Positions 5,897 to 45,351 are shown, numbered from the stretch's first letter. The stretch is 45,523 bases of DNA from an uncultured Alphaproteobacteria bacterium (GCA_913053235.1 CAJXFT010000006.1:1-45523), one strand, 5' to 3'. Made by a program: numbers and translations. Notes: generated by a model from the sequence alone, not told the origin.

Positions 5897-6169
5897 TTAG
5901 GGCCGCGTGCCGCGGCATTTGTGCGCGCGGCGGGAAAATAACGTTTCGGGCACCGGATCGTAGCCATGGCCGCCAAACGGGTTGCAGCGAAGAATGCGCC
6001 ACAGCGTCAGGGCGGGTCCGAACAAGGGGCCGTGGCGCTTCACCGCTTCCAGCCCATAATGCGAGCAGCTCGGCTCAAAGCGGCAGGACGGCGGCAGCCA
6101 CGGCGCTATCACCAGCTGATAGCCGCGAATGAGCAGCCACAATATGAAACTGATCGGATTCATCATCAA
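5897..6169 (-). CDS. yidD: Membrane protein insertion efficiency factor YidD
   Basis: GYQLVIAPWLPPSCRFEPSCSHYGLEAVKRHG...RILRCNPFGGHGYDPVP is the YidD signature; start overlaps the rnpA stop. Confidence 0.93.
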   Translation of the reverse strand: MMMNPISFILWLLIRGYQLVIAPWLPPSCRFEPSCSHYGLEAVKRHGPLFGPALTLWRILRCNPFGGHGYDPVPETLFSRRAHKCRGTRP

Positions 6170-6573
6170 TCCGCGATCTCTTTTTTGTCGATCCGCGACA
6201 ATTTTTCGTCGATCCGCGTCAAAGCCGTCTCCAAATCGCGCCGCAAATCCGCGAATCCGCGCTGCAGCGTCGCGGCTCTGGCGATAACCACATAGTCATG
6301 CCCGGCCTTGGCGTGCCCCGGCATAACATGCGCCACAGCCGCGCGCAATCGGCGCTTGGCGCGGTTTCTCGCCACCGCGCCGCCGACCCGCCGGCTGGCG
6401 GTAAAGCCGACGCGGATCATTGCTTCGCCACCGTCCGAGTTCCCCGCGCATGCCGGCTGGCCGGCTGTCCGAACGGCTTGCAGGACCAATCCCGGCATCG
6501 CCGCTTTGCGGCCCTGGGCCTGGGCATGGAGAAATTCGGACCGCCGCGTCAGGCGCACGATCCTGGCCGCCAT
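6166..6573 (-). CDS. rnpA: Ribonuclease P protein component
   Basis: IRVGFTASRRVGGAVARNRAKRRLRAAVAHV is the RnpA RNR motif; position between rpmH and yidD. Confidence 0.92.
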   Translation of the reverse strand: MAARIVRLTRRSEFLHAQAQGRKAAMPGLVLQAVRTAGQPACAGNSDGGEAMIRVGFTASRRVGGAVARNRAKRRLRAAVAHVMPGHAKAGHDYVVIARAATLQRGFADLRRDLETALTRIDEKLSRIDKKEIAD

Positions 6574-26648: not shown

Positions 26649-27617
26649 ATGACCAACATGCTGGAAGTCGAGGATCTCACCAAGATTTTCGTCATCGCCA
26701 AGGACGCCGACCTGATCGCGGTGAACAATATCTCGTTCAGTTTGAAGCGCGGCGAAACATTGGGCCTGGTGGGCGAGAGCGGCTCGGGAAAAACCACGGT
26801 GGGGCGCTGCATTCTGCGCCTCATCGAGCCGACCGAGGGCCGTATCATCCTCGACGGCGAGGACATCACCGAACTCGACGCCAAGCGTCTGCGCGATTTG
26901 CGCACCAATATGCAGCTCGTCTTCCAGGACCCGTTCGGCTCGCTCAACCCGCGCCTGACGGTTTCGCAAACGGTTGAAGAGCCGCTCACCCTGCACGGCA
27001 TGAAACGCGCCGAGCGCGCCGAGCGGGTGGCGGAGATGATGCGCCTGGTCGGACTGAGCGAGCATTTCTACCATTATTATCCGGCCGATCTGACGGCCAG
27101 CGAACAGCAGCGCGTCGGCATCGCGCGGGCGCTGGCGACCAAGCCCGAATTCGTCGTGCTCGACGAGCCGACCTCGATGCTCGACCCCTCGGCGCGGGCG
27201 GAAATTCTCGAGCTGTTGCGGAAAATCCAACACGAGCTGGGCACCGCCTATATTTTCATTTCGCATGATTTGACCTCGGTCGCCAAGATCAGCCATCGCA
27301 TCGCCATCATGTATCTCGGCCATATCGTCGAGCATGCGCCGACCGATATCATCATGCACAGCCAGCGCCACCCCTATAGCCGGGCGCTGCTTTCCGCCGT
27401 GCTGTTCCCGGATCCGGAACGGGCGCCGGACCCCTATGTCATCGAGGGTGAAATTCCCACCGCCATCAACCCCAAGCCCGAATGCCCGCTCTATGGCCGC
27501 TGCCCGATCCGCCAGGATGCCTGCATGAGCGAGGTTCCGCCGATGGTCGAGATCGAGCCCGACCATTTTTCCGCCTGCCGCCGGTGGCGCGACGTCGCGG
27601 CCAGCACCCAGGCTTGA
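26649..27617 (+). CDS. Peptide/nickel-type ABC transporter ATP-binding protein (DppF/OppF-like) with non-canonical signature motif
   Basis: GESGSGKTTVGR Walker A, LVFQDPFGSLNP Q-loop, LTASEQQR in place of LSGGQ, FVVLDEPTSMLD Walker B, FISHDL H-loop, C-terminal oligopeptide-type CPLYGRCP. ATG at 26649. Confidence 0.9.
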   Translation: MTNMLEVEDLTKIFVIAKDADLIAVNNISFSLKRGETLGLVGESGSGKTTVGRCILRLIEPTEGRIILDGEDITELDAKRLRDLRTNMQLVFQDPFGSLNPRLTVSQTVEEPLTLHGMKRAERAERVAEMMRLVGLSEHFYHYYPADLTASEQQRVGIARALATKPEFVVLDEPTSMLDPSARAEILELLRKIQHELGTAYIFISHDLTSVAKISHRIAIMYLGHIVEHAPTDIIMHSQRHPYSRALLSAVLFPDPERAPDPYVIEGEIPTAINPKPECPLYGRCPIRQDACMSEVPPMVEIEPDHFSACRRWRDVAASTQA

Positions 27618-27651
27618 TGGCGCGCCGCCGCCGCTGACCCGTGGCCGTTTG

Positions 27652-27730
27652 TTGACCGCTATTTTCCGAAGGTGATAGGTTTAGCTTAATAAAACAAATG
27701 ATCGTTCATTAGCGCATCGAACCGGTTCAA
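27652..27730 (+). promoter_or_regulatory. Candidate promoter/operator region of the peptide-type ABC importer
   Basis: TTGACC (27652-27657) -35-like; inverted repeat AATGA-TCGT-TCATT (27697-27710); perfect palindrome GAACCGGTTC (27719-27728); just upstream of the SBP ATG at 27758. Confidence 0.4.
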
Positions 27731-27757
27731 CAAAGCAACCAAGAGGGAGATCTAATC

Positions 27758-29422
27758 ATGAAGCTGGGAGTTCTCATTAAACGCGGCCTGTTGGGCGCCG
27801 CCGCCGCGCTCATCGCCGCCGGCACGTCTCTCGTGCCGGGCATGGCCAAGGCCGGCGAGGATACGATGGTCATCGCCATCGGCGCCCTGCCGCAGGGCAT
27901 CGATGTCGACAAGCATGTCAGCCCGCAAACCTGGAGCATGGGCGCCCAGGTGCTGGAGGATGGCATGAGTTGGGAGTGGATCGATTTTCCCTTCTCGACC
28001 GGCGACGATTGGGACCCCTCGACCATCCCCGGCTTCAAATATCCCGATTATATCGGGCAGAAGAAGCTGATTCCCGGAATCATCGAAAAATGCGATCTCG
28101 ACGCCGACGGCAAGCGCGCCGTCTACCATATCCGCGAAGGTGTGATTTCACCGTGGGGCAACGAGTTCACCGCCGACGATATCCTGTGGCGCATCGAGCG
28201 CGGCAAGGCGACCGGCGCGATCAACAATTTCCTCGAATTCCTGGTCAACATGCCGGGCCAGACGATCAACCCGCCGGAGAGCGGCGGCTACAGGAAGATC
28301 GACAAATATACCGTCGAGATCACCTCCTCGGCCGGCATGCCGCTGGCCTGCAAGGCGCTGACCAATTATTACAACCCCTGGCTCGATTCGACCGAGATGA
28401 AGAGGAACGCCACCGAGGACGATCCGTGGGCCAACAAATGGGTGGCGACCAATGGCGGCGGATTCGGCGCCTACCGCGTCACCGAATGGTCGCCGGGCAA
28501 GCGCGTTGTCATGGAGGCGAACGAGAATTACTGGCGCGGCGCGCCCGAGATCAAGAAGATCATCTATCTGGTGGTGCCGGAATCGGCCAACAGGGTGGCG
28601 CTCCTGCAACAGGGCAAGATTCACATGGCCGAAGGGCTGACGCCGGACGAGATCGTGGCGCTCGCCGCGTCGGACAAGGCGCGCGGTGTCGCCGTGCGCG
28701 GCAACCAATCGATGTGGGTGATGATCAACAATGAGATGGCGCCCTTCGACAATGTCAAAGTGCGCCAGGCGATCAACCACGCGATCAACCGTGAGGCCAT
28801 CGTCAAAAACATCTATCACGGCATGATGAACAATTGGCAGGGCGTCATGCCGAGCACCTATCCGGGCTATGAGAATTGGCTCAAATATGATTTCGACCCG
28901 GCCAAGGCGAAGCGGATTCTGGCCGAAGCGGGATTTCCAAACGGCTTCGACGCCGAGCTTTCATTCTGCGTCTGTGACGCCGCCCAGGAATCCATCTCGA
29001 TCCTGCTGCAGAGCGATTTCAAGAAGGCCGGCATCAATCTCACATTGAAGAAACTGCCGACCGCCGCATGGTCCGATACCGTGCAGAGCAAGAAAGGCTC
29101 GCTGGCGCTGTGGACCGATATGCCGATCCAGCCCGACATCAACTATGCCTTGAAGCTGGTTTGGCCGACCGGCGCCCTGGTCAACTACCATAATTTCTCC
29201 GATCCCAAGGTCGATCAGACCTTGAAGGACGGCGAAGGTGTGGTCGAGCCGGGTGCGCGCATCGCGGCGCATGAAGGCATCCAGGAATATATCCACGACC
29301 TGGCCCCGCTCGGCTGGATCGGCGAGCATTATTTCGCCGTCGGCCTGTCGCGCAAGGTCAGCGGGTTCCGCTGGTATACGACGCAATATTACCACGTCAA
29401 CGAGATGACCATCGCGGAGTAA
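27758..29422 (+). CDS. ABC transporter substrate-binding protein, family 5 (peptide/nickel type)
   Basis: Signal peptide; ALPQGIDVDKHVSPQTW, GAYRVTEWSPGKRVVMEANENYWRGAPEIKKI, VRQAINHAINREAIV. Confidence 0.9.
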   Translation: MKLGVLIKRGLLGAAAALIAAGTSLVPGMAKAGEDTMVIAIGALPQGIDVDKHVSPQTWSMGAQVLEDGMSWEWIDFPFSTGDDWDPSTIPGFKYPDYIGQKKLIPGIIEKCDLDADGKRAVYHIREGVISPWGNEFTADDILWRIERGKATGAINNFLEFLVNMPGQTINPPESGGYRKIDKYTVEITSSAGMPLACKALTNYYNPWLDSTEMKRNATEDDPWANKWVATNGGGFGAYRVTEWSPGKRVVMEANENYWRGAPEIKKIIYLVVPESANRVALLQQGKIHMAEGLTPDEIVALAASDKARGVAVRGNQSMWVMINNEMAPFDNVKVRQAINHAINREAIVKNIYHGMMNNWQGVMPSTYPGYENWLKYDFDPAKAKRILAEAGFPNGFDAELSFCVCDAAQESISILLQSDFKKAGINLTLKKLPTAAWSDTVQSKKGSLALWTDMPIQPDINYALKLVWPTGALVNYHNFSDPKVDQTLKDGEGVVEPGARIAAHEGIQEYIHDLAPLGWIGEHYFAVGLSRKVSGFRWYTTQYYHVNEMTIAE

Positions 29423-29534
29423 ACGAGACCGCGCCACCCGCGGCCCGACAGCGCCGCGGGCGGCGCGCCTTTTCGACAATCCCATTCACGCGCTCCTACG
29501 CACGCCCATAGTTTAGCCGCCGGGAACAATCTGA

Positions 29535-30569
29535 ATGCGTTTTGCCGCCTATCTCGGCCTCAGATTTGTCTTTCTGATTCCGCAGATCGTGCTGATCTCT
29601 TTGATCACCTTCGTGCTCGTCCGCATGTTGCCGGGCAACCCGGCGCGCATGTCGCTGGGGCCGCTGGCGCCCGAATCGGCGGTCGAGGCGCTGCGCGAAA
29701 AATGGCTGCTCGACCGCCCCATATTCGAGCAATATGGCGCCTGGCTCGAAAAAGCCTTCACCGGCGACCTCGGCGAATCCTGGGTCAACAATACCTATGT
29801 GCTCGACGACCTCATTCAGCGCATTCCCGTCACCATCGAAATCATCACCCTGGCGCTGATCCTGGTTTTTCTGTTCCTGGTGCCGCTCGCCATCATCACC
29901 GCCAGCCACACCAAAAACCGCATCGTCAGGTTCTTTCAGAATATCACCTTCGGCTACGGCATGCTGGCCGGCGCGCTGCCCGACTTCCTTCTCGGACTGG
30001 TGCTTATTTTTGCATTCTTCACCCATGCCGGAATTCTTCCAGGGCCGGAGGGGCGGCTCGGCATTCTCGATTTCGAATCGCCCTTCGTCACCGGCTCGGT
30101 GCTCATCGATTCGCTGATCGCCGGCGATATCGATAATTTCTGGTCCGGCGCCTGGCATTTGGTCATGCCCGTTTTCACCCTCGCTTTCGTCTATGGCGCG
30201 CCCATCTTCAAGATGCTCAGGAGCCAGATGGAGGGCGCGCTACAGGCCGATTACACGGTCTATGCCGAGGCCGTCGGCATCAAGCCGCGCACCGTGTTTC
30301 TGCGCGCCGCGCGGGTCGCTTCGGGGCCGACCATCGTCATCACCGGCGTCGTGGTGATGTTCCTCTTGGGCGGCGCCGTGCTGGTCGAGACGGTGTTCAA
30401 CCTCACCGGGCTCGGGCAATATGCGGTACAGGCGATCGTCACCGCGGATTACGCGCCGCTGCAGGGCTTCGTCTCGTTCGCCGCCATTTTCACCATGCTG
30501 GTCTATCTCGCCGTCGACCTGGTGCAGTTCGCCATGGACCCGCGCATCAAGGCGGTGGGGTCGCGATGA
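29535..30569 (+). CDS. Peptide-type ABC transporter permease (DppB-like)
   Basis: LRFVFLIPQIVLISLITFVLVRMLPGNPA N-terminus, six predicted TM helices, VETVFNLTGLGQYAVQAI. Confidence 0.9.
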   Translation: MRFAAYLGLRFVFLIPQIVLISLITFVLVRMLPGNPARMSLGPLAPESAVEALREKWLLDRPIFEQYGAWLEKAFTGDLGESWVNNTYVLDDLIQRIPVTIEIITLALILVFLFLVPLAIITASHTKNRIVRFFQNITFGYGMLAGALPDFLLGLVLIFAFFTHAGILPGPEGRLGILDFESPFVTGSVLIDSLIAGDIDNFWSGAWHLVMPVFTLAFVYGAPIFKMLRSQMEGALQADYTVYAEAVGIKPRTVFLRAARVASGPTIVITGVVVMFLLGGAVLVETVFNLTGLGQYAVQAIVTADYAPLQGFVSFAAIFTMLVYLAVDLVQFAMDPRIKAVGSR

Positions 30570-30595
30570 CCGGCCGCCAAGCGCTGTAGCGGCAT

Positions 30596-32338
30596 ATGTG
30601 GCTGCGCATCAAACGCACGCTCAGGAGCCTGCCGAAATGGCAGCTCGGCGTGCTCGGCATCTTCTTCGGCATCCTCTTTCTGACCATTTTCGGCCCCTAT
30701 CTCGCGCCCTTCCCGACCGAGACGGCGGACCCGTTGTCGCGCCTCCTGCCGCCGGGCGGAAAACATTGGCTGGGCACCGATGAAAACGGCATGGACATCT
30801 TCTCGCGGGTGCTGGCGGCGCCGCGCACCGATGTCGTCATCGGCGTCGTGGCGACCTTCATATCGGTCGTCCTCGGCGCGCCGCTGGGCGTTCTCGTCGC
30901 GCTTTACGAGAGCCGCGGCAAGGCCGGCGCCACGGCCTTCGCCGAAACCTTCATGCGCCTCCTCGAAGTCATGCAATCCTTTCCGGTGTTCGTCTTCGCC
31001 ATGGTGCTGGTGGCGGTGTTCGGCGGCAGCATCACCAACATCATCATCGCCATCGCCTTCGTCAACACGCCGGTATTCATCCGCCTGGTGCGCTCCGAGG
31101 TGCTCAGCCTGGTGCAGCGGCCGTTCTCCGAGGCGGCGCGCGCCGTCGGCAACACCGAGATGCGGCTCGGCTTCCGGCATATTTTTCCCAACGCCTTTCC
31201 GGTGGTGATGGTGCAGGTTTCGGTCACCGTCGGCTTTGCCATCCTGTTGACGGCGGGGCTGAGCTTCGTCGGCGCCGGGGTGCGGCCGCCGACGCCAGAG
31301 CTCGGCGCGATGATCGCTTCCGGCGCCAAATACCTCATCATCGAACAATGGTGGCCGGCGCTGTTCCCGGGCGTGGCACTCGGCCTTACGGTGTTCTCGT
31401 TCGGCATATTCGGCGAGATACTGAACCTGGCGATGGAGCCACGCGCGGTGCGCAAGGATGTCGACCGCCGCCGCACCGCCGCGCTCGAAAGTGGCCGCGG
31501 CGGCGGCGAAACGGCGGCAGCGGCGCTACCGAGCGCTTTAAGTGCGGCGCCGGGCGGCGAAACGCCGGTCCTCGCGGTGGCGAATCTGCGCGTCGCGGTC
31601 GGCGATGCCGGCGGCCAGGAATTGATCAGCGACATCTCGTTCTCGCTGGCGCCCGGCGAAAGCATGGCCATCGTCGGCGAATCCGGCTCCGGCAAATCGG
31701 TGCTGGTGAAAGCCGTCCTGCAGCTGCTGCCCTATCCCCTCGAAGTGACCTCCGGCACGGTGCATTACGGCGAGACCAATCTTGTCGGCATGGAAAAGCG
31801 CGAGATGCGCAAGCTGCGCTCGCGCGAAATCGCCGCCATCCTGCCCAACGCCAAATCGCAACTCAACCCGCTGACCACGGTCGGTGCGATGCTGGTCAGC
31901 GCCCTCCAGGCGCATGAGAAGATCGCCACCAAGGCGGCGCTGGCGCGCGCCATCGAATTGCTGGAAATGGTCGGCATCACCGACCCGGAGCTGCGCCTCG
32001 GCGCCTATCCGCATGAATTGAGCGGCGGCATGGCGCAGCGCGTCTGTCTCGCGCTGGCCCTGATGTACCGCCCGCGCCTGTTGATCGCCGACGAACCCAC
32101 CGCCGGGCTCGACGTCACCATTCAGCGCCAGGTGTTGGATCTGACGCGCAATCTGGCGCGCGAATCAGGCACGGCGCGGCTCGTCATCACCGGGGATTTC
32201 GGCATCGCCGCGCATTATTGCGACCGCGTCGCGGTGATGCAGGCGGGGCGCATCGTCGAGGCCAATCAGACGCAAGCGCTGTTCGCCGAGCCGCGCCACC
32301 CCTATACGAGGCACCTTCTCTCCTGCGTGCAGGTTTAA
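30596..32338 (+). CDS. Fused ABC transporter permease (DppC-like) and ATP-binding protein (DppD-like)
   Basis: DppC-type permease (HWLGTDENGMDIFSRVLAAPRTDVVIGV...TAGLSFVGAGVRPPTPELGAMI) continuing in frame through an Ala/Gly-rich linker to an NBD (GESGSGKSVLVKAV, LSGGMAQR, LLIADEPTAGLD). Confidence 0.92.
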   Translation: MWLRIKRTLRSLPKWQLGVLGIFFGILFLTIFGPYLAPFPTETADPLSRLLPPGGKHWLGTDENGMDIFSRVLAAPRTDVVIGVVATFISVVLGAPLGVLVALYESRGKAGATAFAETFMRLLEVMQSFPVFVFAMVLVAVFGGSITNIIIAIAFVNTPVFIRLVRSEVLSLVQRPFSEAARAVGNTEMRLGFRHIFPNAFPVVMVQVSVTVGFAILLTAGLSFVGAGVRPPTPELGAMIASGAKYLIIEQWWPALFPGVALGLTVFSFGIFGEILNLAMEPRAVRKDVDRRRTAALESGRGGGETAAAALPSALSAAPGGETPVLAVANLRVAVGDAGGQELISDISFSLAPGESMAIVGESGSGKSVLVKAVLQLLPYPLEVTSGTVHYGETNLVGMEKREMRKLRSREIAAILPNAKSQLNPLTTVGAMLVSALQAHEKIATKAALARAIELLEMVGITDPELRLGAYPHELSGGMAQRVCLALALMYRPRLLIADEPTAGLDVTIQRQVLDLTRNLARESGTARLVITGDFGIAAHYCDRVAVMQAGRIVEANQTQALFAEPRHPYTRHLLSCVQV

Positions 32339-32351
32339 TGCCAAGAAGCCG

Positions 32352-34175
32352 TCAGGCGCGCATTTCGGCGCGCAGCGCTTCGGTCGCCGCACCATCCACC
32401 GCCAGGCTGTCATCGGCGACCTCGCCGGTGATCACCACGCCATAGATATCGCGCGCGGTCTCCGACGAGACATAACGCTCGGCGACATCCATGAGCACGC
32501 GTTCGACCTCGCGCTCGAGCGGATCGCCGTAACCGCCGCCGCCCTGATCGTTGGCGCGCAGCCTGTCGCCTTCGGCAAGCTCGCAGATCATCACGGCGGG
32601 GTATTTCGTCTCCGTACCGTCCTTGGCGATTTTTACATTGCCGCCGAGCTTCGAGCCGGTGCCGCCGCGCACGCCCTTGGGCGCACTGGCGAGGCCATTG
32701 CAGACATGGAGAATCTTCATCTCGTCCTTGCGCGGCCCCATGATCACCTGCGTCGCCGGCCCGCCGCGGCGCCGGCCATGGCCCATCGAATCGGTGCTGA
32801 TGCCCATCGCATCGATCTTGATCGGAAAGCGCTGCTCGTTGATCTCGACGCTGTCGCGGTACAAGAGGCCGGCGGCCACCGGCACGAAGAGATAATGCAT
32901 GCCATCGCAAGTCGCCGAGGCGCCGCCGCCGCCGCCCATCATGAACATCTGATTGATATAGGCCTCGCCGCCGCGCCGCCAATCGGTGCCCGAGGCGACG
33001 CCGGCGGCGGCCGAGTTGCAATAATTGCCATGCGCATAGCCGTGCCCGTCGCCGAGCTCGGCGAAGGCGGACTGGGTGACGTTGACGATCAGATCCGTCA
33101 GGTTGGTCGTCGCCACCGAGCAGCTATGCGGGAATTTCGGTATGCCGACGACGCAATTCTCGCGCAGCAGCACATCGATTCGCCTGAGGCTGCCCGAATT
33201 GGGCGGCAGATCCTCGCCCAGACAGGTCAGGATTCCCTGCGCCGCCGCCATCGTCGAGGTGCTCTCGGTGAGGTTGAGGCCGGCCGGGATACAGTCGATA
33301 TTGTCGCGCAGATCGACCGTCACCTTGGCCGCGTCCGGATCGATATCGATGGTCAGCCCGACCGGTATGCCCTCCGGCACCCAGGGCTCCATCGGATCGT
33401 GGGTTTGCTGGCCGCGAAGCAGCCCCTTGGGCAATTTTCTGATGGCGTCGATGCAGCGCCGTTCGGAATAGTCGAACCATTCGCGGACGAAATCGCGCAC
33501 CGTCTCCATGCCGTATTTTTCGACGAATGCCTTGAGGCTGCGCTCGCCGATGCGGGCCGCGCCGACGGCGGCGAGATAATCGCCATACCATTGGTCCGGC
33601 ACCCGGATGCGGCGCTTGCACATGCGGATGATGTCGTCGATATCGGCGTATTCATCCTGCACCTGGACGCAGGGAAAAATCAGCGCCCCCTCGTGATAGA
33701 CATCGGCCGCCGGCGCCATATAGGTGGTCGGCAGGCTGTTGCCGATATCCGCCTGATGCGCCTTGACGGCGACCGAAAACATATGCTCGCCGCCGAAAAA
33801 GACCGGCACGATGATGGTGTGATCGGCGGCATGGGTGTTGCCGAGATAGGGATCGTTGTGCAGAAAGGCATCGCCTTGCTTGAAATCCGGATGCAGATCG
33901 CACATCGATTCGGTCTGGATGTTCATGCCCCAGACGTGGATCGGAAAACCTTCCGCCACCGCCAGGATCTCGTTCTCGGAAGTGATCACCGCGCAGGAGA
34001 AATCGCGCGCCATGCCGATCACCGACGAGCGCGCCGCCAGCAACATGGTGTTGGTCATTTCCCGGCACACCGCTTCCATGCGGTTGGCCATCACCGCCAG
34101 CAGCACGGGATCGAAACGGTTGTCTTGGCTCGGCTTGGCGCCGGTCCCGGATTTTGCTTCGGAATTCGCCATCAT
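32352..34175 (-). CDS. hyuB: Hydantoinase B / oxoprolinase family protein
   Basis: FDPVLLAVMANRMEAVCREMTNTMLLAARSSVIGMARDFSCAV, FLHNDPYLGNTHAADHTIIVPVF, GGGGYGDPLERE. Confidence 0.92.
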   Translation of the reverse strand: MMANSEAKSGTGAKPSQDNRFDPVLLAVMANRMEAVCREMTNTMLLAARSSVIGMARDFSCAVITSENEILAVAEGFPIHVWGMNIQTESMCDLHPDFKQGDAFLHNDPYLGNTHAADHTIIVPVFFGGEHMFSVAVKAHQADIGNSLPTTYMAPAADVYHEGALIFPCVQVQDEYADIDDIIRMCKRRIRVPDQWYGDYLAAVGAARIGERSLKAFVEKYGMETVRDFVREWFDYSERRCIDAIRKLPKGLLRGQQTHDPMEPWVPEGIPVGLTIDIDPDAAKVTVDLRDNIDCIPAGLNLTESTSTMAAAQGILTCLGEDLPPNSGSLRRIDVLLRENCVVGIPKFPHSCSVATTNLTDLIVNVTQSAFAELGDGHGYAHGNYCNSAAAGVASGTDWRRGGEAYINQMFMMGGGGGASATCDGMHYLFVPVAAGLLYRDSVEINEQRFPIKIDAMGISTDSMGHGRRRGGPATQVIMGPRKDEMKILHVCNGLASAPKGVRGGTGSKLGGNVKIAKDGTETKYPAVMICELAEGDRLRANDQGGGGYGDPLEREVERVLMDVAERYVSSETARDIYGVVITGEVADDSLAVDGAATEALRAEMRA

Positions 34176-34183
34176 ATGCTCCC

Positions 34184-36274
34184 TTACGCGCTTCTCTCGG
34201 GTTCGGTTTCCAGCACATAGTTGCGCCGCTCCGTCACCCGCGCCGTGGCGCCCGGATAGACCACGATGGTCGTGGTCGGCTCCTCGATGATCGCCGGCCC
34301 GGCAATCTCGGCGCCGGGGTTGAGATCGGTGCCGACATAGACCGGCGCGTCGACGGCCTCGCCGCCGCCGAAATGGGTTTTGGAAATGCGCTTGGCCTTG
34401 GCCGCCTTGTCATCGCCCGCGGCTTCGCGCGGCAGTGTCGGCTTGTCGAGAATGGCCGTCAGCCGGCCCTTCCAATTGACGCATTCGATGGCGCCGCCCT
34501 CTTCCTTGACCGCATAGCGGCGAAAATGCACGTCGTGGAATTGGTTCACCAGCGCCTCGACATCGGCGGCATTTTCGATCTTCTCCAGCGGCATGGCGAA
34601 TTCCATTTCCCACTGCTGATTGATGTAACGCGCCTCGACGAAAAATTCGCTCTCGAATCTGTCGACGCCGCGGCCGCGCAGCTGGTCGCTGAATTCGGCG
34701 ATCTGGCGGCGGATGCCGCCCAGGGCACGTTCCACCCCGGCGAAATCAAAATTGCCCGAATGGGTATATTGGCTGGCGCTGAATTCGGCGGCGATATTGG
34801 AATATTGCCCGCCGCAGGCGCTCAACGCCCCGGCGGTACTCGGCACCAGCACCTTGGCGCAGCCCAGCGCCTTGGCGATGGGCAGGATGTTGAGGCCGGC
34901 GGCACCGCCGCCGGCGACGAGAATGCTCTCGGCCGGATTGACGCCGTCCTGCACGGTGATTTCCTGGATCGCCTTGATCATCTGTTCGCCGGCGATGGTG
35001 ATGATGGCGAAGGCCGCCTGCTCGGCGCTCATCTCGCTTTGGGCGGCAATGGCGCCGATGACGCTCTTGGCCGCCGCCACATCGAGCGCCATGCGCCCGC
35101 CGAGGAAGAAGTCGGGATCGATATAGCCGAGCACCACGGCGGCATCGGTGACCGTCGCATCGGCGCCACCCTGGCCATAGCAGGCCGGGCCCGGAACGGC
35201 GCCGGCGCTCTTCGGGCCGACGCGCAACAAGCCGCCCGAATCGATCCAGGCGATGGAGCCGCCGCCGGCGCCGACGCTCCTGACATCGACCGAGGAGAGG
35301 CCGAGATTGTGGCCGATCCATTCGCCGAGCAGCCAGGTCTCGCGGGTGAATTTGATCTGCCCGGCGCGCACCAGGCTGACATCGAAAGTGGTGCCGCCGG
35401 TATCGACGATGATGACGTCATTGCCCTCACCCTCGGCCTCGGCATAGGCGATACCGGCCAGGGGCGCCATCGCCGGCCCCGATTTTACCGTGTAGATCGG
35501 CTTCTCGACGACATCCTCGACATGCATGACGCCGCCCGAGCAGGCGCTGACCAGGATCTCGCCGCGATAGTTGGCGCCGCGAAGGTCGCTCTCGAATTCG
35601 CTGAGATGGCTCTGCATCAGCGGCTTCAGCGATGCGTCGATGGCGGTCGAGGAGGTGCGCGGATATTCGCGGATGATCGGGTTGAGCCGGTGCGACAGCG
35701 TATAGGGAATGCCCGGCATGATTTCGCCGATCAACTCGCCGAGCCGCGTTTCATGGTCGGGATTGACGATCGACCATAACAGGCTGACCGAAACGGCCTC
35801 GATATTCATCAATGGCAGGCCTTCGATGACGGCACGCGCCGCCGCCTCGTCGAGCGTGGTCTCGACGCCGCCCTCGGCATTGATGCGCTCGGGAATCTCG
35901 AAGGTGAGGCGGCGCGGCACGTAAGGCGGCGGGAATTCCATCGCCAGATTGAGCGGCTCGCGCTTGCCGCCCTGGCGGTAGAGCAGGGTATCGGGAAAGC
36001 CCTCGGTCACCAGCAAGGCGGTCTTGGCGGTCTTGTTCTCGATGATCGAATTGGTCGCCCGCGTGGTGCCGTAGATCAGGACATCGCTGTCGCCGAGCAG
36101 GCTCTCGACCGGCACGCCGATATTCTCCGCCGCATTGGCGAGCGCGCCGGAAAAACCGTCATAGGTGCGCTCGGGCGTGGTCAGCGCCTTGCCGACGGTC
36201 AAGCGGCCGTCCGCATCGGCGACGACGACATCGGTAAAGGTGCCGCCGGTATCGACGGCAATGCGGTAGCTCAT
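34184..36274 (-). CDS. hyuA: Hydantoinase A / oxoprolinase family protein
   Basis: MSYRIAVDTGGTFTDVVV, RATNSIIENKTAKTALLVTEGFPD, VDTGGTTFDVSLV, VGAGGGSIAWID. Confidence 0.93.
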   Translation of the reverse strand: MSYRIAVDTGGTFTDVVVADADGRLTVGKALTTPERTYDGFSGALANAAENIGVPVESLLGDSDVLIYGTTRATNSIIENKTAKTALLVTEGFPDTLLYRQGGKREPLNLAMEFPPPYVPRRLTFEIPERINAEGGVETTLDEAAARAVIEGLPLMNIEAVSVSLLWSIVNPDHETRLGELIGEIMPGIPYTLSHRLNPIIREYPRTSSTAIDASLKPLMQSHLSEFESDLRGANYRGEILVSACSGGVMHVEDVVEKPIYTVKSGPAMAPLAGIAYAEAEGEGNDVIIVDTGGTTFDVSLVRAGQIKFTRETWLLGEWIGHNLGLSSVDVRSVGAGGGSIAWIDSGGLLRVGPKSAGAVPGPACYGQGGADATVTDAAVVLGYIDPDFFLGGRMALDVAAAKSVIGAIAAQSEMSAEQAAFAIITIAGEQMIKAIQEITVQDGVNPAESILVAGGGAAGLNILPIAKALGCAKVLVPSTAGALSACGGQYSNIAAEFSASQYTHSGNFDFAGVERALGGIRRQIAEFSDQLRGRGVDRFESEFFVEARYINQQWEMEFAMPLEKIENAADVEALVNQFHDVHFRRYAVKEEGGAIECVNWKGRLTAILDKPTLPREAAGDDKAAKAKRISKTHFGGGEAVDAPVYVGTDLNPGAEIAGPAIIEEPTTTIVVYPGATARVTERRNYVLETEPERSA

Positions 36275-39426: not shown

Positions 39427-39520
39427 GGCAACAAATTCGCCTTGATCGGATCGGATAATGGCTTACCCGGCGCCCCGATGCACGGTATATTGGCGCCCGG
39501 CACAGAAGAGGAACCCGCGC

Positions 39521-40699
39521 ATGGAAAATTCACCCATCAAGGCGCCTGTCATGACCTTGACTTCCGGCCCGGTGGCGATTTATCCGCGCGTTCAGGAAGC
39601 ATTGTCGCGGCCCGTTCCCTATCACTACGACCCCTATTTTCTAAACTTCTACGAACAGGTCTGCGTCAAGGCCGGCCGGGCGCTGCGCAGTGACCGCCCG
39701 GCGCTAATTTTGCAGGTCGAGCCGGCGGCGGCGATCGAGGCGGCGGCGGCATCGCTGATATCGCCCGACGACGTGGTGCTCAATCTGGCTTCCGGCGTCT
39801 ATGGCAAGGGCTTCGGCTATTGGGCGGCGCGCTATTGCAAGCGGCTGACGGAAGTGGAAGTCGCCTACAACGAGGCCATCGATGCCGGGCAGGTGGCCGA
39901 GGCCCTGCGCGCCAACCCGGATGTTACGATCGTCTCCGCCGTCCATCACGACACGCCGTCGGGCACCCTCAATCCGATCGACGAGATCGGCGCGGTGGTC
40001 AAGGCGCACGGCGCCCTCTTTCTGGTCGACGCGGTTTCCTCGTTTGCCGGCATGGATGTTCACCCGATTGATGCTGCCACGGATATATTCATCACCGGAC
40101 CGGGAAAATGCCTCGGCGGATCGCCGGCGCTGTCTGTCCTCGACGTCACCGAGGCGGCCTGGACGCATATGGAGAGCAACGAAAACGCGCCCCGGGCATC
40201 GATTCTCAGCCTGCTCGACTGGAAGAATGCGTGGCGCAAGGAGGAGGGGTTTCCGTTCACGCCCTCGGTGTCGGAAGTGCACGGCCTCGATGCCGCCTTC
40301 GATCAATATTTGCAGGAGGGGCCGGAAACCGTGTGGCGGCGCCATGACCTGACGGCGCGGGCGTGCCGCGCCGGCATCAAGGCGATGGGGCTTGAGCTGT
40401 GGCCGGCGCGCGAATCGATCGCCGCGCCGAGCACCACGGCGGTCACCATCCCCGGCAATTTGACGACCGAGCAAATCATCTCCGCGGCGCGCCAAACATT
40501 TGGTGTGATGCTCTCGGCCGGCCTCAAGGAGACCTACGACAAGCTGATCCGCATCGGCCATATGGGGCCGGTGGCCGAGCCGGTTTACGCCGTCACCGCA
40601 ATCGCCGTGTTGGGCGCCGCCGTGCGCCAACACGGCATCAAAGCCGATGTCGGCGCCGGCATCGAGGCGGCGCTGGCGGAAATACCGAACGGCGCTTAA
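39521..40699 (+). CDS. Class V aminotransferase resembling pyridoxamine-pyruvate transaminase
   Basis: ASLISPDDVVLNLASGVYGKGFGYWAARY, HHDTPSGTLNPIDEIGAVV, VDAVSSFAGM, TGPGKCLGGSPALSVL (PLP Lys), PFTPSVSEVHGLD; resembles my recollection of the Mesorhizobium enzyme. Confidence 0.75.
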   Translation: MENSPIKAPVMTLTSGPVAIYPRVQEALSRPVPYHYDPYFLNFYEQVCVKAGRALRSDRPALILQVEPAAAIEAAAASLISPDDVVLNLASGVYGKGFGYWAARYCKRLTEVEVAYNEAIDAGQVAEALRANPDVTIVSAVHHDTPSGTLNPIDEIGAVVKAHGALFLVDAVSSFAGMDVHPIDAATDIFITGPGKCLGGSPALSVLDVTEAAWTHMESNENAPRASILSLLDWKNAWRKEEGFPFTPSVSEVHGLDAAFDQYLQEGPETVWRRHDLTARACRAGIKAMGLELWPARESIAAPSTTAVTIPGNLTTEQIISAARQTFGVMLSAGLKETYDKLIRIGHMGPVAEPVYAVTAIAVLGAAVRQHGIKADVGAGIEAALAEIPNGA

Positions 40700-40704
40700 C
40701 CGCC

Positions 40705-41640
40705 TCAACGTTCCCCCCGGTGATAGGGAAGGCCGAGCGCCGGCGGTAAGTAGCTGTGCCGCGCGAACAGCACCAACACGACGATCACCATCGCGAAGGG
40801 CAGCATCTGCACGATGTCGGTCGGGATGTTGAGCCCGGCCACTTGCAGCGCCGTGGTGAGCGCCAAGCTGGCGCCGAACAATGCCGCGCCCAACAGAACC
40901 CAAAGCGGTTTGCCGCGCGCCAGCATGGCGAGAACGATAGCGATAAAGCCGGCGCCATGGGTCATGAACGGCACGAACAGGCCGGCCCCGACATCAGCCA
41001 TGAAGGCGCCGCCGATGCCGGCGAGCAGGCCGGTGGCGAGCACGGCAAGGCTGCGCGTCAGTTTGACGTCGATGCCGGCGGCATCGAGCGCCGCCGGATG
41101 GTCGCCGGCGGCCTGGAGATTGAGCCCGATATGGCTGCGCCGGAACAGCCAGGCGATGGCGACGACCAGCACTATGGCGAGATAGACCAGCGGGTGGCGC
41201 TCAAAGAGGGCCGGGCCGATCACCGGGATATCGCTGAGCCCGGCTATATCCAGGGTCGGCACTTCTGACAGGCGCGGATAGCTGCGGCTGAACTGGAAAT
41301 GGTGCAGCAGCGCCGTCAGCCCTTCGGCACCGATGGTAAGCGCGATGCCGATGACGATTTGATTCATGCCGAGAAGAACGCAGAACAGCACCATCAGCGC
41401 CGCGACGGCCATGCCCGAGACGCCGCCGGCGAGGAAGCCGAGCCAGAAGGACTCGCTGTAATAGGCCGCCACGAAGCCGCCATAGGCGCCCATCAGCATC
41501 ATGCCCTCGATGCCGATATTGAGCACCCCGGCCTTTTCCGAGATCTGCTCGCCGAGGCCGGCGAGCAGCAGCGGGATGCCGACGGTCACGGCGCCGAACA
41601 GCAGCGAGGCGATAAAGGTCTCGGTGAGAAGCCCGCCCAC
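40705..41640 (-). CDS. BMP/nucleoside-type ABC transporter permease (second)
   Basis: EKAGVLNIGIEGMMLMGAYGGFVAAYYS, GMNQIVIGIALTIGAEGLTALL; family-typical. Confidence 0.9.
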   Translation of the reverse strand: MGGLLTETFIASLLFGAVTVGIPLLLAGLGEQISEKAGVLNIGIEGMMLMGAYGGFVAAYYSESFWLGFLAGGVSGMAVAALMVLFCVLLGMNQIVIGIALTIGAEGLTALLHHFQFSRSYPRLSEVPTLDIAGLSDIPVIGPALFERHPLVYLAIVLVVAIAWLFRRSHIGLNLQAAGDHPAALDAAGIDVKLTRSLAVLATGLLAGIGGAFMADVGAGLFVPFMTHGAGFIAIVLAMLARGKPLWVLLGAALFGASLALTTALQVAGLNIPTDIVQMLPFAMVIVVLVLFARHSYLPPALGLPYHRGER

Positions 41641-41643
41641 CGC

Positions 41644-42666
41644 TCAGGCCTTTTTGCGCCGGCGCGACAGATGGTCGAGATATTCGACCAGGGCCAGAAA
41701 TATGAGCAGCAGGGCGACCAGAACAAGGACATAGAAATTGGGCACGCCCAAGCGCCGCGACGCGCTCTCGCCGCCGATCATCAGGATGGCGAAGAACAAA
41801 GTCAGTGCGATCACCGCGATGCCGTTGAAGCGGGCGAGAAACACCAGCGGCACGACGAGCAGTCCATAGGCCGGATTCCAATCGGCGCGCATGGTTCCCC
41901 ACACGCCGAGAATCTCGACCGCGCCGCCGAGGCCGGCAAGGCCGGCGCTGAGCGCAAACGTCGCGTAGGTGAGGCGCCCGACATTCAATCCGGCATGTTT
42001 GGCGGCGCGCGGATTGGCGCCGACGATTTGTAAGCGCAGCCCGAACGCCGTTCGCGTCATGACGAAGTGGGTGATGAGCACGGCGACCAGGGCGATGATG
42101 ATGCCGCCATGGATGGTGGTGTCGAACAGCCGCCCCAAACGGTCGGCCACCGGCAGCGTCATGGTCTGCGGCACCGTGTTGTCGGGATCGTTAAACGGCA
42201 GTTTGATCAGCACATTGGCGAAACTGATACCGAGGAAGGTCATCATCAATGTGGTGATGATTTCGTTCAGCCCGTATTGCGTTTTCAGAAATGCCGGGAC
42301 CAGCGACCACGACATCGCCACCAGCACCGAGACGGCGCAGCAGATAACGATGGTCAGCCAGGACGGCAGCGCAGCGATGAGAAGCGGCGCCAGGGCGGCG
42401 GAGGCGACCGCGGCGAGCAGAAATTGCCCGTCGACGCCGAGGTTCCAGATACCGGCGCGGAAGGCGACGATCAGCCCGGCGGCGATCAACAGCAAGGGCG
42501 CGGAACGGATGATGGTCTGTTGCAGGCCGCTCCAGCTTAAGAGGCCGCGCTGCACGACGAAATCGTAATAGGCGAGCGGATCCTTGCCGAGGGCGAGAAG
42601 AATCAGGCCGCCGGCGACGAGCGCCAGAACGATCGGAACGACAACGCGTAAAGTGGAAAATATCAC
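41644..42666 (-). CDS. BMP/nucleoside-type ABC transporter permease (first)
   Basis: RAGIWNLGVDGQFLLAAVASAAL, YGLNEIITTLMMTFLGISFANVLIKLPFND, VGANPRAAKHAGLNVGR. Confidence 0.9.
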   Translation of the reverse strand: MIFSTLRVVVPIVLALVAGGLILLALGKDPLAYYDFVVQRGLLSWSGLQQTIIRSAPLLLIAAGLIVAFRAGIWNLGVDGQFLLAAVASAALAPLLIAALPSWLTIVICCAVSVLVAMSWSLVPAFLKTQYGLNEIITTLMMTFLGISFANVLIKLPFNDPDNTVPQTMTLPVADRLGRLFDTTIHGGIIIALVAVLITHFVMTRTAFGLRLQIVGANPRAAKHAGLNVGRLTYATFALSAGLAGLGGAVEILGVWGTMRADWNPAYGLLVVPLVFLARFNGIAVIALTLFFAILMIGGESASRRLGVPNFYVLVLVALLLIFLALVEYLDHLSRRRKKA

Positions 42667-42679
42667 GGCGCCAAACCGC

Positions 42680-44260
42680 TCATGCCGCCTTCGCCCCCGT
42701 CATCAGGCGCCCGATCCGCGCCTCGGCGCCGGCCTGATTGTCGACGATGCCGCGGAGCTCGCCGGCGAACATGACGCCGATGCGGTGGCAAAGCTCGAGC
42801 AGTTCGTCGAGCTCGGTGGAGATGACGATTGTGGCGATGCCCGATTCCGCCGACTTGACAATGCGCTGGCGCGCCAGGCGGGTATTGTGCAGGTCGAGCC
42901 CATGGGTCGGTTTGTTGAAGATCACCACCGAGGCGTCGGTGGATATTTCACGCGCCAGCAGCAGCTTTTGAATATTGCCGCCGGACAGCCGGCCGAGCAG
43001 CGTATGTTCCGACGGCGTGCGTATGTCGTGCTCCTCGATGACGTGGCGGGCATGGCTGAAAATGCGCCGCCATTGGGTCATGCCGTCCCGCCAATAGGGC
43101 GGCGCGCCGATCTCCTTGAGCACCAGGTTGGTGGCCACGGAATGTCCGGCAACGGTTGCCTCGCCGAGCCGTTCGTCGGATATGTAGCGCACGCCGAGGC
43201 GCCGGCGCGCCGCAACGCCGCCCGGGCCGGCCGGCTGGCCGCCCACCTCGATGGTGCCGGAAAGTGCCGGGCGCTGGCCGGCGAGCAGCTCGGCGAGATG
43301 CTTCTGGCCATTGCCGTCGACGCCGGCGATGCCGAACACTTCGCCCGGCCTGACCGAAAAACTGACGCCGCCGAGCGCGCACTCACCCGGCGCCGCGGCG
43401 GTCACGACATTCTCTAGCCCGATCGCGGCTGGACCCGAGCGATCGAATTCGGCGCGCGCGCGCCTGCCATGCCCCTCGCGCACCAAGGTCTTTGCGTCGG
43501 CGCCATCCGAATCCTCGAACATCAATCGGATGATTTCGTTTGTCGCTTCCTCCTCACCCATGGCGCGCAAGCGCTCGGGCGCGATACCGCCGACCAGGCG
43601 GCCGCGGCGCAACACCGATATGCGGTCGCCAAACGCGTAGGCCTCGCGCAGCTTGTGGGTGACGAAGACGATCGCCACGCCCTCTTCGGCGAGGCGCCGC
43701 ATGACGCCGCCGAGCTCCTCCACGCCTTGTGGCGTCAGCATCGATGTCGGCTCGTCGAGGACCAGCACATTGCCGCCATGCCACAGCGCGCGGATGATTT
43801 CGACCTGCTGCTGTTGGCCGAGCGACAGGCGGCCGGCCGGCACGTGCGGGTCGATATCGACGCCGAGCAATTGCGATATTTCGCCAAACCGGCCGAGCGC
43901 GGCGCGGCGGTCATGGCGGCGCCACCAGGCACCGCCGAGCATGAGATTTTCAATCACCGTCAGGCTGTTGACGAGCAGCACATGCTGAAAGACGGTGCCG
44001 ATGCGAAGCCGGAGGCTGTGGTGCGGCGAGTTGATGCGCACCCGTGCGCCGGCGATCTCGATATGCCCCTCATCGGGCTGTAGCATGCCGGCGAGAATGC
44101 CGATCAGGGTCGATTTTCCGGCGCCGTTTTCGCCGAGCAAGGCATGCACCTCGCCGCCATGCAAGGCCAGCGAGATGGCGTCATTGGCGAGCACCCCGGG
44201 AAACCGCTTGGTGATTCCGCGGAGCGCCACCGCGGGCGCACGCCCGGCCGCCGGAGTCAC
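42680..44260 (-). CDS. BMP/nucleoside-type ABC transporter ATP-binding protein (two NBDs)
   Basis: First NBD GENGAGKSTLIG, LSLGQQQQVEI, VLVLDEPTSML; second NBD LSGGNIQKLLLAREI. Confidence 0.92.
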   Translation of the reverse strand: MTPAAGRAPAVALRGITKRFPGVLANDAISLALHGGEVHALLGENGAGKSTLIGILAGMLQPDEGHIEIAGARVRINSPHHSLRLRIGTVFQHVLLVNSLTVIENLMLGGAWWRRHDRRAALGRFGEISQLLGVDIDPHVPAGRLSLGQQQQVEIIRALWHGGNVLVLDEPTSMLTPQGVEELGGVMRRLAEEGVAIVFVTHKLREAYAFGDRISVLRRGRLVGGIAPERLRAMGEEEATNEIIRLMFEDSDGADAKTLVREGHGRRARAEFDRSGPAAIGLENVVTAAAPGECALGGVSFSVRPGEVFGIAGVDGNGQKHLAELLAGQRPALSGTIEVGGQPAGPGGVAARRRLGVRYISDERLGEATVAGHSVATNLVLKEIGAPPYWRDGMTQWRRIFSHARHVIEEHDIRTPSEHTLLGRLSGGNIQKLLLAREISTDASVVIFNKPTHGLDLHNTRLARQRIVKSAESGIATIVISTELDELLELCHRIGVMFAGELRGIVDNQAGAEARIGRLMTGAKAA

Positions 44261-44286
44261 GATATGCTCCCCGGTGGAGCGCTGCC

Positions 44287-45351
44287 TTATTCCGCCGCCG
44301 GCGCCTCGACGGAGGTCATCAGGGCGCGCACATCCCGGGCATCATAGACTTCGGCGACGGGAACGGAACCGTCGATGATCTGCTGGCGCACCTTCATCAG
44401 GCTGTCCCAGATGGCGTCGGGAATATGCGCGGTCTTGAGCAGGCGCACGGAATCGTCGGCGAGGCCGATCTTGTAGCCGACGGTGCCGAACCTGCCGGCG
44501 TTGAGATCCTCGACCATGGCGCTGTAGACGGGAATCATGTCCCACAGGACCGAGGACAGAAGATGGCCCTTGTCGAGCCCGCTCTTGTCGCCGATCACAT
44601 CGATGAACCAGGCCTTGCCGCCATCGACCGCACTCGTGGTTTCGACGGCCTGAATCATGCCGAAGCTGGAGCCGTTGCCCTGGCCGAAAACCACGTCGGC
44701 GCCGGCCGAAATCACCGATTCCGTGACCCGCCGGCCGCCCGCCGCATCGGCATAGGCGGCCGGGCCGATCACCGCGTAAACGATCTTGGTGCCGCTGCCC
44801 GACGCCCTGACGCCCATGGCGAAACCGGCCGATTGCGAGTTCCATGACGGCGGCTCGCCGGAGACGACGATGCCGACGGTGCCGGTGCGGCTCATTTTGG
44901 CGGCCAGCATGCCGGCGAGATAGGCGCCGTCATGGCCGCTCAGCGTATAGTCGCCGACCAGGCCGGCGACCAGGCCGTCGGGCTTGTCGACGATGGCCAC
45001 CGGGACGCCGGTCTCGGCGGCGATTTCCGGCGCCGCCGTGTTGTAACCGCTGGCATGGGCGATCATCAGGCTGGCGCCCTCATCGGCCAATTCGCGTAAC
45101 GTCGGGCGCACGTCGCCGTAACCGAGCCCCTCGGCGGGCAGGAATTCGAGATCATATTTTTCGGCGACGGCGCGCGCGGCATCGACACCCTGCTGGTTCC
45201 AGCCGTAATCGGTGCCCTGTTCGGGCACCAGCACGGCGATTTTCTTGACCGCATCGCCGGCCCCGGCGCCGGCGCTTATCGCCACCAGGGCGCCGAGTGC
45301 CAACCCGGCAATGGCGGCGCGCTGCATCGTCTTTCCAATAAATTCACGCAT
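44287..45351 (-). CDS. BMP family ABC transporter substrate-binding protein
   Basis: Signal peptide; VKKIAVLVPEQGTDYGWNQQGVDAARAV, VVFGQGNGSSFGMIQAV, LSSVLWDMIPVYSAMVEDL. Confidence 0.9.
   Translation of the reverse strand: MREFIGKTMQRAAIAGLALGALVAISAGAGAGDAVKKIAVLVPEQGTDYGWNQQGVDAARAVAEKYDLEFLPAEGLGYGDVRPTLRELADEGASLMIAHASGYNTAAPEIAAETGVPVAIVDKPDGLVAGLVGDYTLSGHDGAYLAGMLAAKMSRTGTVGIVVSGEPPSWNSQSAGFAMGVRASGSGTKIVYAVIGPAAYADAAGGRRVTESVISAGADVVFGQGNGSSFGMIQAVETTSAVDGGKAWFIDVIGDKSGLDKGHLLSSVLWDMIPVYSAMVEDLNAGRFGTVGYKIGLADDSVRLLKTAHIPDAIWDSLMKVRQQIIDGSVPVAEVYDARDVRALMTSVEAPAAE

Follow-up and report, generated by a model that had tools for sequence, protein, structure and literature searches.

The window analyzed here is a stretch of 45,523 nucleotides from an uncultured alphaproteobacterium (GCA_913053235.1, CAJXFT010000006.1:1-45523), and its positions 26649 to 32338 encode an ATP-binding cassette (ABC) importer in which one of the two composite ATP sites appears to be degenerate. 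The components of the Opp/Dpp-type family are all encoded together, namely a family 5 substrate-binding protein, two BPD_transp_1 permeases, and two ABC ATPases (Pfam and NCBIfam), and it is on these components that the system is classed as an Opp/Dpp-type (peptide/opine/nickel) ABC importer. Two canonical ATP sites are a common trait of this family rather than a defining one, and the window importer does not have them. The DppD-like ATPase (D) is joined in one protein to the DppC-like permease (C), a detail that goes beyond an earlier, preliminary description of the locus, while the DppF-like ATPase (F) and the DppB-like permease (B) are separate proteins. The four genes are as follows.

26649..27617, + strand: DppF/OppF-like ATPase, 322 amino acids (aa), with the noncanonical signature LTASE; matches ABC_tran and oligo_HPY, and the best NCBIfam model is of the DppF/OppF type
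27758..29422, + strand: binding protein, SBP_bac_5 (Pfam)
29535..30569, + strand: DppB/NikB-like permease (Pfam, NCBIfam)
30596..32338, + strand: fusion of a DppC-like permease and a DppD-like ATPase, 580 aa (Pfam BPD_transp_1 at residues 95-284, ABC_tran at 345-503)

The two composite ATP sites

The ATPase motifs of F and D, with the composite site to which each is assigned, are the following.

26772..26792, + strand: F Walker A, GESGSGK (canonical site)
26919..26933, + strand: F Q-loop, VFQDP (canonical site)
27090..27104, + strand: F signature, LTASE instead of LSGGQ (contribution of F to the degenerate site); the same in all 13 F orthologues
27159..27176, + strand: F Walker B and start of the D-loop, LDEPTS (canonical site)
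27261..27272, + strand: F H-loop, SHDL (canonical site)
31676..31696, + strand: D Walker A, GESGSGK, unaltered (degenerate site)
31841..31855, + strand: D Q-loop, LPNAK
31844..31846, + strand: codon of the Gln-to-Pro change in the D Q-loop (degenerate site); present in all D orthologues
32018..32032, + strand: D signature, LSGGM, unaltered (canonical site)
32087..32104, + strand: D Walker B, ADEPTA, with the catalytic Glu retained
32189..32200, + strand: D H-loop stretch, TGDF
32192..32194, + strand: codon of the His-to-Gly change in the D H-loop (degenerate site); present in all D orthologues

The preliminary description had reported LTASE in F, and Pro and Gly together with a normal LSGGM in D; translation and a check of the coordinates gave exactly these readings at exactly these positions. 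The Q-loop alignment contains no gaps (IAAILPNAKSQLNP versus IAMIFQDPMTSLNP). The Lys of both Walker A motifs, the Asp and Glu of both Walker B motifs, the Q- and H-loops of F, and the LSGGM signature of D are all unaltered.

In ABC transporters, one ATP site is built from the Walker A and B motifs and the Q- and H-loops of one ATPase and from the signature of its partner (PMC7756269). By this rule the Q- and H-loops of D and the signature of F belong to the same composite site, so that the site formed by the D Walker motifs and the F signature is predicted to be degenerate and the site formed by the F Walker motifs and the D signature (LSGGM) is predicted to be canonical. A structural model of L118, a naturally fused D-F protein from the clade of related systems described below, agrees with this assignment. 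The model (mean predicted local distance difference test [pLDDT] score, 71.9; predicted template modeling score [pTM], 0.59) aligned with the ATP-bound DppD of Mycobacterium tuberculosis (8wdb_D) over 531 columns with a target TM-score of 0.86, a length over which both ATPase domains superpose together. The earlier proposal that all three changes fall in one composite site and leave the other canonical is thus upheld by the standard site rule and, indirectly, by the alignment of a fused relative with 8wdb_D.

Conservation and origin of the altered motifs

Orthologues of D were present in 14 genomes, the window's included, and all belong to one family; orthologues of F were present in 13 of the 14, and in the remaining genome (G007) D sits on a 4.7-kb contig. 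Every D orthologue carries ILPNAK and ITGD and every F orthologue carries LTASE, down to 66 to 69% identity. Codons within the motifs vary synonymously between species, and the ratio of nonsynonymous to synonymous substitution (dN/dS) was 0.03 to 0.26 where dS was unsaturated. These comparisons show that the altered motif residues are maintained by purifying selection. An error of sequencing or assembly, or a decaying pseudogene, is therefore an explanation to which we assign next to no weight. Many of the members come from draft metagenome assemblies, and the F gene of one (L179, from Cupriavidus sp. KK10) is internally deleted, but the same residues recur in 14 separate genomes with the codon variation and dN/dS just given, and complete plasmids of cultured strains also bear clade members. 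The conserved orthologues rule out error or decay as the cause of the motifs.

It might also be supposed that D and F from this locus do not pair with each other and that each works with another ATPase or complex, since F lies ~13 kb away from the D fusion in two genomes. The motifs still match in those two genomes, however, and F, the binding protein, B, and the C-D fusion form a conserved gene block in most of the orthologous loci. The D and F orthologues share genomes, except for the one fragmentary contig. A canonical site arises only when D pairs with F; neither homodimer, D-D or F-F, would contain one. Relatives in which D and F are naturally fused also exist, and one of them (L118) gives a model resembling the ATP-bound DppD dimer. 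We regard this alternative as very improbable.

The preliminary description proposed that homologues be checked for co-occurrence of the F signature with the D changes. Across 126 distinct Opp/Dpp D/F pairs (distinct being defined as <96% identical), the co-occurrence was without exception. The same site was degenerate each time in 33 pairs and the other 93 were canonical; both subunits were changed in all 33 of the former and neither in any of the latter. No one-sided pair was found, including in a sample chosen by family membership independently of likeness to the clade (PF08352 loci from four genomes), and the Q, E, and H residues of F were lost in none of the 126 pairs.

In the next relatives of the window system the same composite site is degenerate through different residues. 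The fusion L183 of Aminobacter sp. SR38, which has the same C-D arrangement and is 51% identical, has Gln to Ser and His to Arg in D and LSPSE in F, and L191 has Gln to Ser, Glu to Asp, and His to Arg with LSPGL. Group B has Gln to Pro and His to Arg with the F signature FSAGE; group C has Gln to Pro, Glu to Asp, and His to Arg, mostly with LSAGQ. Fused groups D and E have His to Gln, with LSAGQ, MSAGR, LGASA, LGAST, LGAGA, or LSAGA in F, and L156 has Gln to Thr and Glu to Asp with His retained and LTAGE in F. Three pairs have LSSGM instead of LSGGM as the signature of D. One of the fused systems, L146 (G000:C164:1038-2849; D His to Gln, F LSAGQ, D signature LSSGM), is a second degenerate Opp/Dpp system in the window's own genome. 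Among the first 101 pairs, the D-loop Asp of F was absent in seven degenerate pairs and that of D in none; in the fused proteins L118, L110, L146 to L149, and L182, the F residue is replaced (SALS, SALT, SVLA) and the D residue is always present.

This variation bears on the possibility that the altered site has been rewired and is not impaired, in which case both sites would hydrolyze ATP, with the catalytic role taken over by the retained Glu, by a nearby residue (the Gln of SQLN, for example), or by the Arg or Gln that relatives have in place of the H-loop His. The D proteins of the window's group and of the fused groups do have the Walker B Glu, and the unusual residues are strictly kept within the window's group, as if functional. 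Over the clade, however, the replacements differ (Gln to Pro, Ser, or Thr; His to Gly, Arg, or Gln; many F signatures), and in 14 of the 33 degenerate pairs, among them group C, L156, and L191, the Glu of D is changed to Asp, which resembles loss rather than one new catalytic design. Rewiring is unlikely, though it has more to recommend it than the other alternatives considered here.

A tree of the pairs was computed after the motif columns had been removed, and all 33 degenerate pairs formed one clade (ultrafast bootstrap, 99; Shimodaira-Hasegawa-like approximate likelihood ratio test [SH-aLRT], 89). Separate trees of D and F recovered the same clade (SH-aLRT, 93 and 77). The clade is found in Alphaproteobacteria and on one Cupriavidus plasmid, with members on plasmids of cultured Aminobacter, Mesorhizobium, Bradyrhizobium, Agrobacterium, and Roseomonas strains; apart from the Cupriavidus plasmid, none was detected outside Alphaproteobacteria in 399 genomes of the phylum at stringent cutoffs. 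On that plasmid (p1 of Cupriavidus sp. KK10), the F gene of L179 (~6002-6434) follows a group C D gene and has a large internal deletion, its matches being confined to the N-terminal and C-terminal parts.

One shared origin is likely, as the simplest account of the degenerate pairs, and the 33 pairs therefore cannot be counted as 33 events. The "co-evolved asymmetry" of the preliminary description accordingly stands as far as the perfect co-occurrence in the 126 pairs is concerned, but not as independent co-evolution: many separate events are unsupported because the degenerate pairs form one clade, for which one origin suffices. A stronger sign of lasting asymmetry than co-occurrence is the confinement of later changes to the degenerate site. 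Within the clade, a minimum of 23 residue changes was counted at seven positions of the degenerate site (Q, E, and H of D and signature positions 2 to 5 of F), compared with 1 at their seven counterparts in the canonical site. Nearly all members have lost the first glycine of the F signature, L156 lacks Gln and Glu and keeps His, and the fused groups lack His and keep Gln and Glu. These patterns suggest an early change in F followed by separate losses in D, in an order that is uncertain owing to long branches.

Proposed mechanism and comparison with known transporters

We propose, with a probability of about 0.7, that these systems are a distinct Opp/Dpp-type importer subfamily whose ATPase dimer is inherently asymmetric, having one hydrolytic site and one binding or structural site. 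The canonical site would hydrolyze ATP. The degenerate site would bind Mg-ATP, as inferred from the Walker A Lys and Walker B Asp retained in D, and would hydrolyze it slowly or not at all, acting as a clamp that holds the dimer, so that ~1 ATP may be used per import cycle. In Escherichia coli DppABCDF, either catalytic Glu alone sustains ATPase activity (PMC12136057), and one working site can thus suffice in the Opp/Dpp family. In the resting E. coli translocator, an ATP analogue occupies DppF only, though both ATPases are motif competent (PMC12136057); the Walker A site of F that is occupied at rest corresponds to the site that is canonical in the clade. The clade may therefore have fixed an asymmetry that is already visible in E. 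coli Dpp.

The same observation could be taken to mean that the degenerate site stays empty and that a single ATP, bound and hydrolyzed at the canonical site, drives the importer, since resting DppD lacks the analogue despite intact motifs (PMC12136057). The E. coli proteins both bind and hydrolyze ATP once DppA is present, however, and D has an invariant Walker A Lys and Walker B Asp in the 31 degenerate pairs scored, where loss would be expected if the site had no nucleotide role. A nucleotide-free site is quite unlikely, less probable than rewiring.

Several points weigh against a hydrolytic site paired with a clamp. In the window's group D still has its catalytic Glu, and some hydrolysis may therefore persist at the degenerate site. 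The C-D fusion of the window was modeled poorly (mean pLDDT, 42). Most of the pairs were sampled by homology to clade members, and with a single origin the co-occurrence carries less statistical weight.

By sequence and fold, the closest solved relatives are DppABCDF and OppBCDF of E. coli and DppABCD and OppABCD of M. tuberculosis, which share the architecture and the families of the window importer. The window importer differs from them in that its D is fused to permease C and lacks the C-terminal Cys tail. The M. tuberculosis Opp and Dpp chains have canonical motifs by alignment, whereas in the window importer Gln, His, and the signature of the partner are all missing from one site. For E. 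coli DppD and DppF, functional motifs have been described (PMC12136057), and the asymmetry of E. coli Dpp is a functional one that exists despite these. The caution that such asymmetry is not an established feature of Opp/Dpp importers was borne out: we found no report of a degenerate site in them in the open-access literature and no comparable degeneracy among the solved relatives examined.

Among exporters, degenerate sites are a familiar feature (PMC7756269). In TM287/288, BmrCD, TAP, CFTR, and Pdr5, as in the window importer, changes on two subunits are gathered in one composite site, the other site of the window importer being canonical, and the altered motifs are conserved among orthologues. 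In Pdr5, the H-loop His and the partner signature (LNVEQ) are both altered (PMC7756269), a pattern comparable to that of the window. However, these proteins have the exporter fold and their usual mark is loss of the Walker B catalytic Glu, a hallmark absent from D of the window, which belongs to a binding-protein-dependent type I importer. The importer is thus not a member of the degenerate-site exporters and channels; it is an Opp/Dpp importer by its parts and, judged by its motifs, is predicted to work like them. Degenerate sites in importers as such are already known, since type II importers of sugars and nucleosides with fused ATPases of the RbsA/NupO type are reported to have one degenerate ATP site (PMC11466899). 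Those importers belong to another class and another ATPase family, and their second domain lacks the Walker A Lys or Walker B residues, whereas both Walker A motifs of the window importer are intact. We think it probable, if somewhat less so than the asymmetric dimer itself, that the clade is a mainly alphaproteobacterial type I subfamily that is permanently asymmetric, with a hydrolytic site and a nonhydrolytic clamp site, a counterpart of CFTR, TAP, and TM287/288 that arose within Opp/Dpp.

The ATP requirement per importer cycle, and whether both sites must fire, are debated. Here one defined site of a heterodimeric importer seems to have been disabled by evolution, whereas both are preserved in sister systems of the same genomes, which would allow a direct comparison, and the clade offers a natural series of losses in D (His; Gln and His; Gln, Glu, and His), with the F signature changed in each. 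The annotation "dipeptide ABC transporter ATP-binding protein" masks what is probably a mechanistically distinct subfamily.

Cysteine motif and neighboring genes

The remaining features of interest are a motif in F and two genes that converge on the transporter operon.

27483..27578, + strand: C-terminal four-Cys motif of F (C279, C285, C292, C310), candidate [4Fe-4S] ligands by analogy with E. coli DppD/DppF
32352..34175, - strand: HyuB-like hydantoinase/oxoprolinase subunit; the linkage with the transporter holds in two genera
34184..36274, - strand: HyuA-like hydantoinase/oxoprolinase subunit; linkage as for HyuB

The [4Fe-4S] cluster of E. coli DppD and DppF has been described (PMC12136057). 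F matches the oligo_HPY C-terminal region in which its four Cys lie, while the match of D is limited to the first 25 positions and falls below the cutoff, D ending before the Cys tail. The tail is absent from the C-D fusions (window 30596-32338; L183:2293-4005) and present in F (27483-27578), so that only one of the two ATPases could carry an Fe-S cluster. The D proteins of groups B and C retain it.

For the HyuB/HyuA-like genes (32352-36274, - strand), the closest NCBIfam models are caprolactamase subunits, with scores far below the cutoffs. They are followed by an Fe-alcohol dehydrogenase gene, and a flavin mononucleotide (FMN) oxidoreductase gene precedes F. Two plasmid-borne group C systems are also near hydantoinase/oxoprolinase genes. 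As a guess, the HyuAB linkage may point to a cyclic amide or peptide-derived compound as the substrate. Further along, an aminotransferase gene (39458-40699, + strand) scores 596 bits against a cutoff of 600 for NCBIfam pyridoxamine-pyruvate transaminase. Next to it, a BmpA/PnrA-type importer (40705-45351, - strand) comprises a Bmp binding protein, a pair of BPD_transp_2 permeases, and a double ATPase of 526 aa (42680-44260). The second half of this ATPase reads GVDGNGQK, FNKPTH, and STEL at Walker A, Walker B, and the H-loop, which is of the RbsA/NupO kind already described. The window thus carries two importers of different classes, each with a predicted degenerate site.

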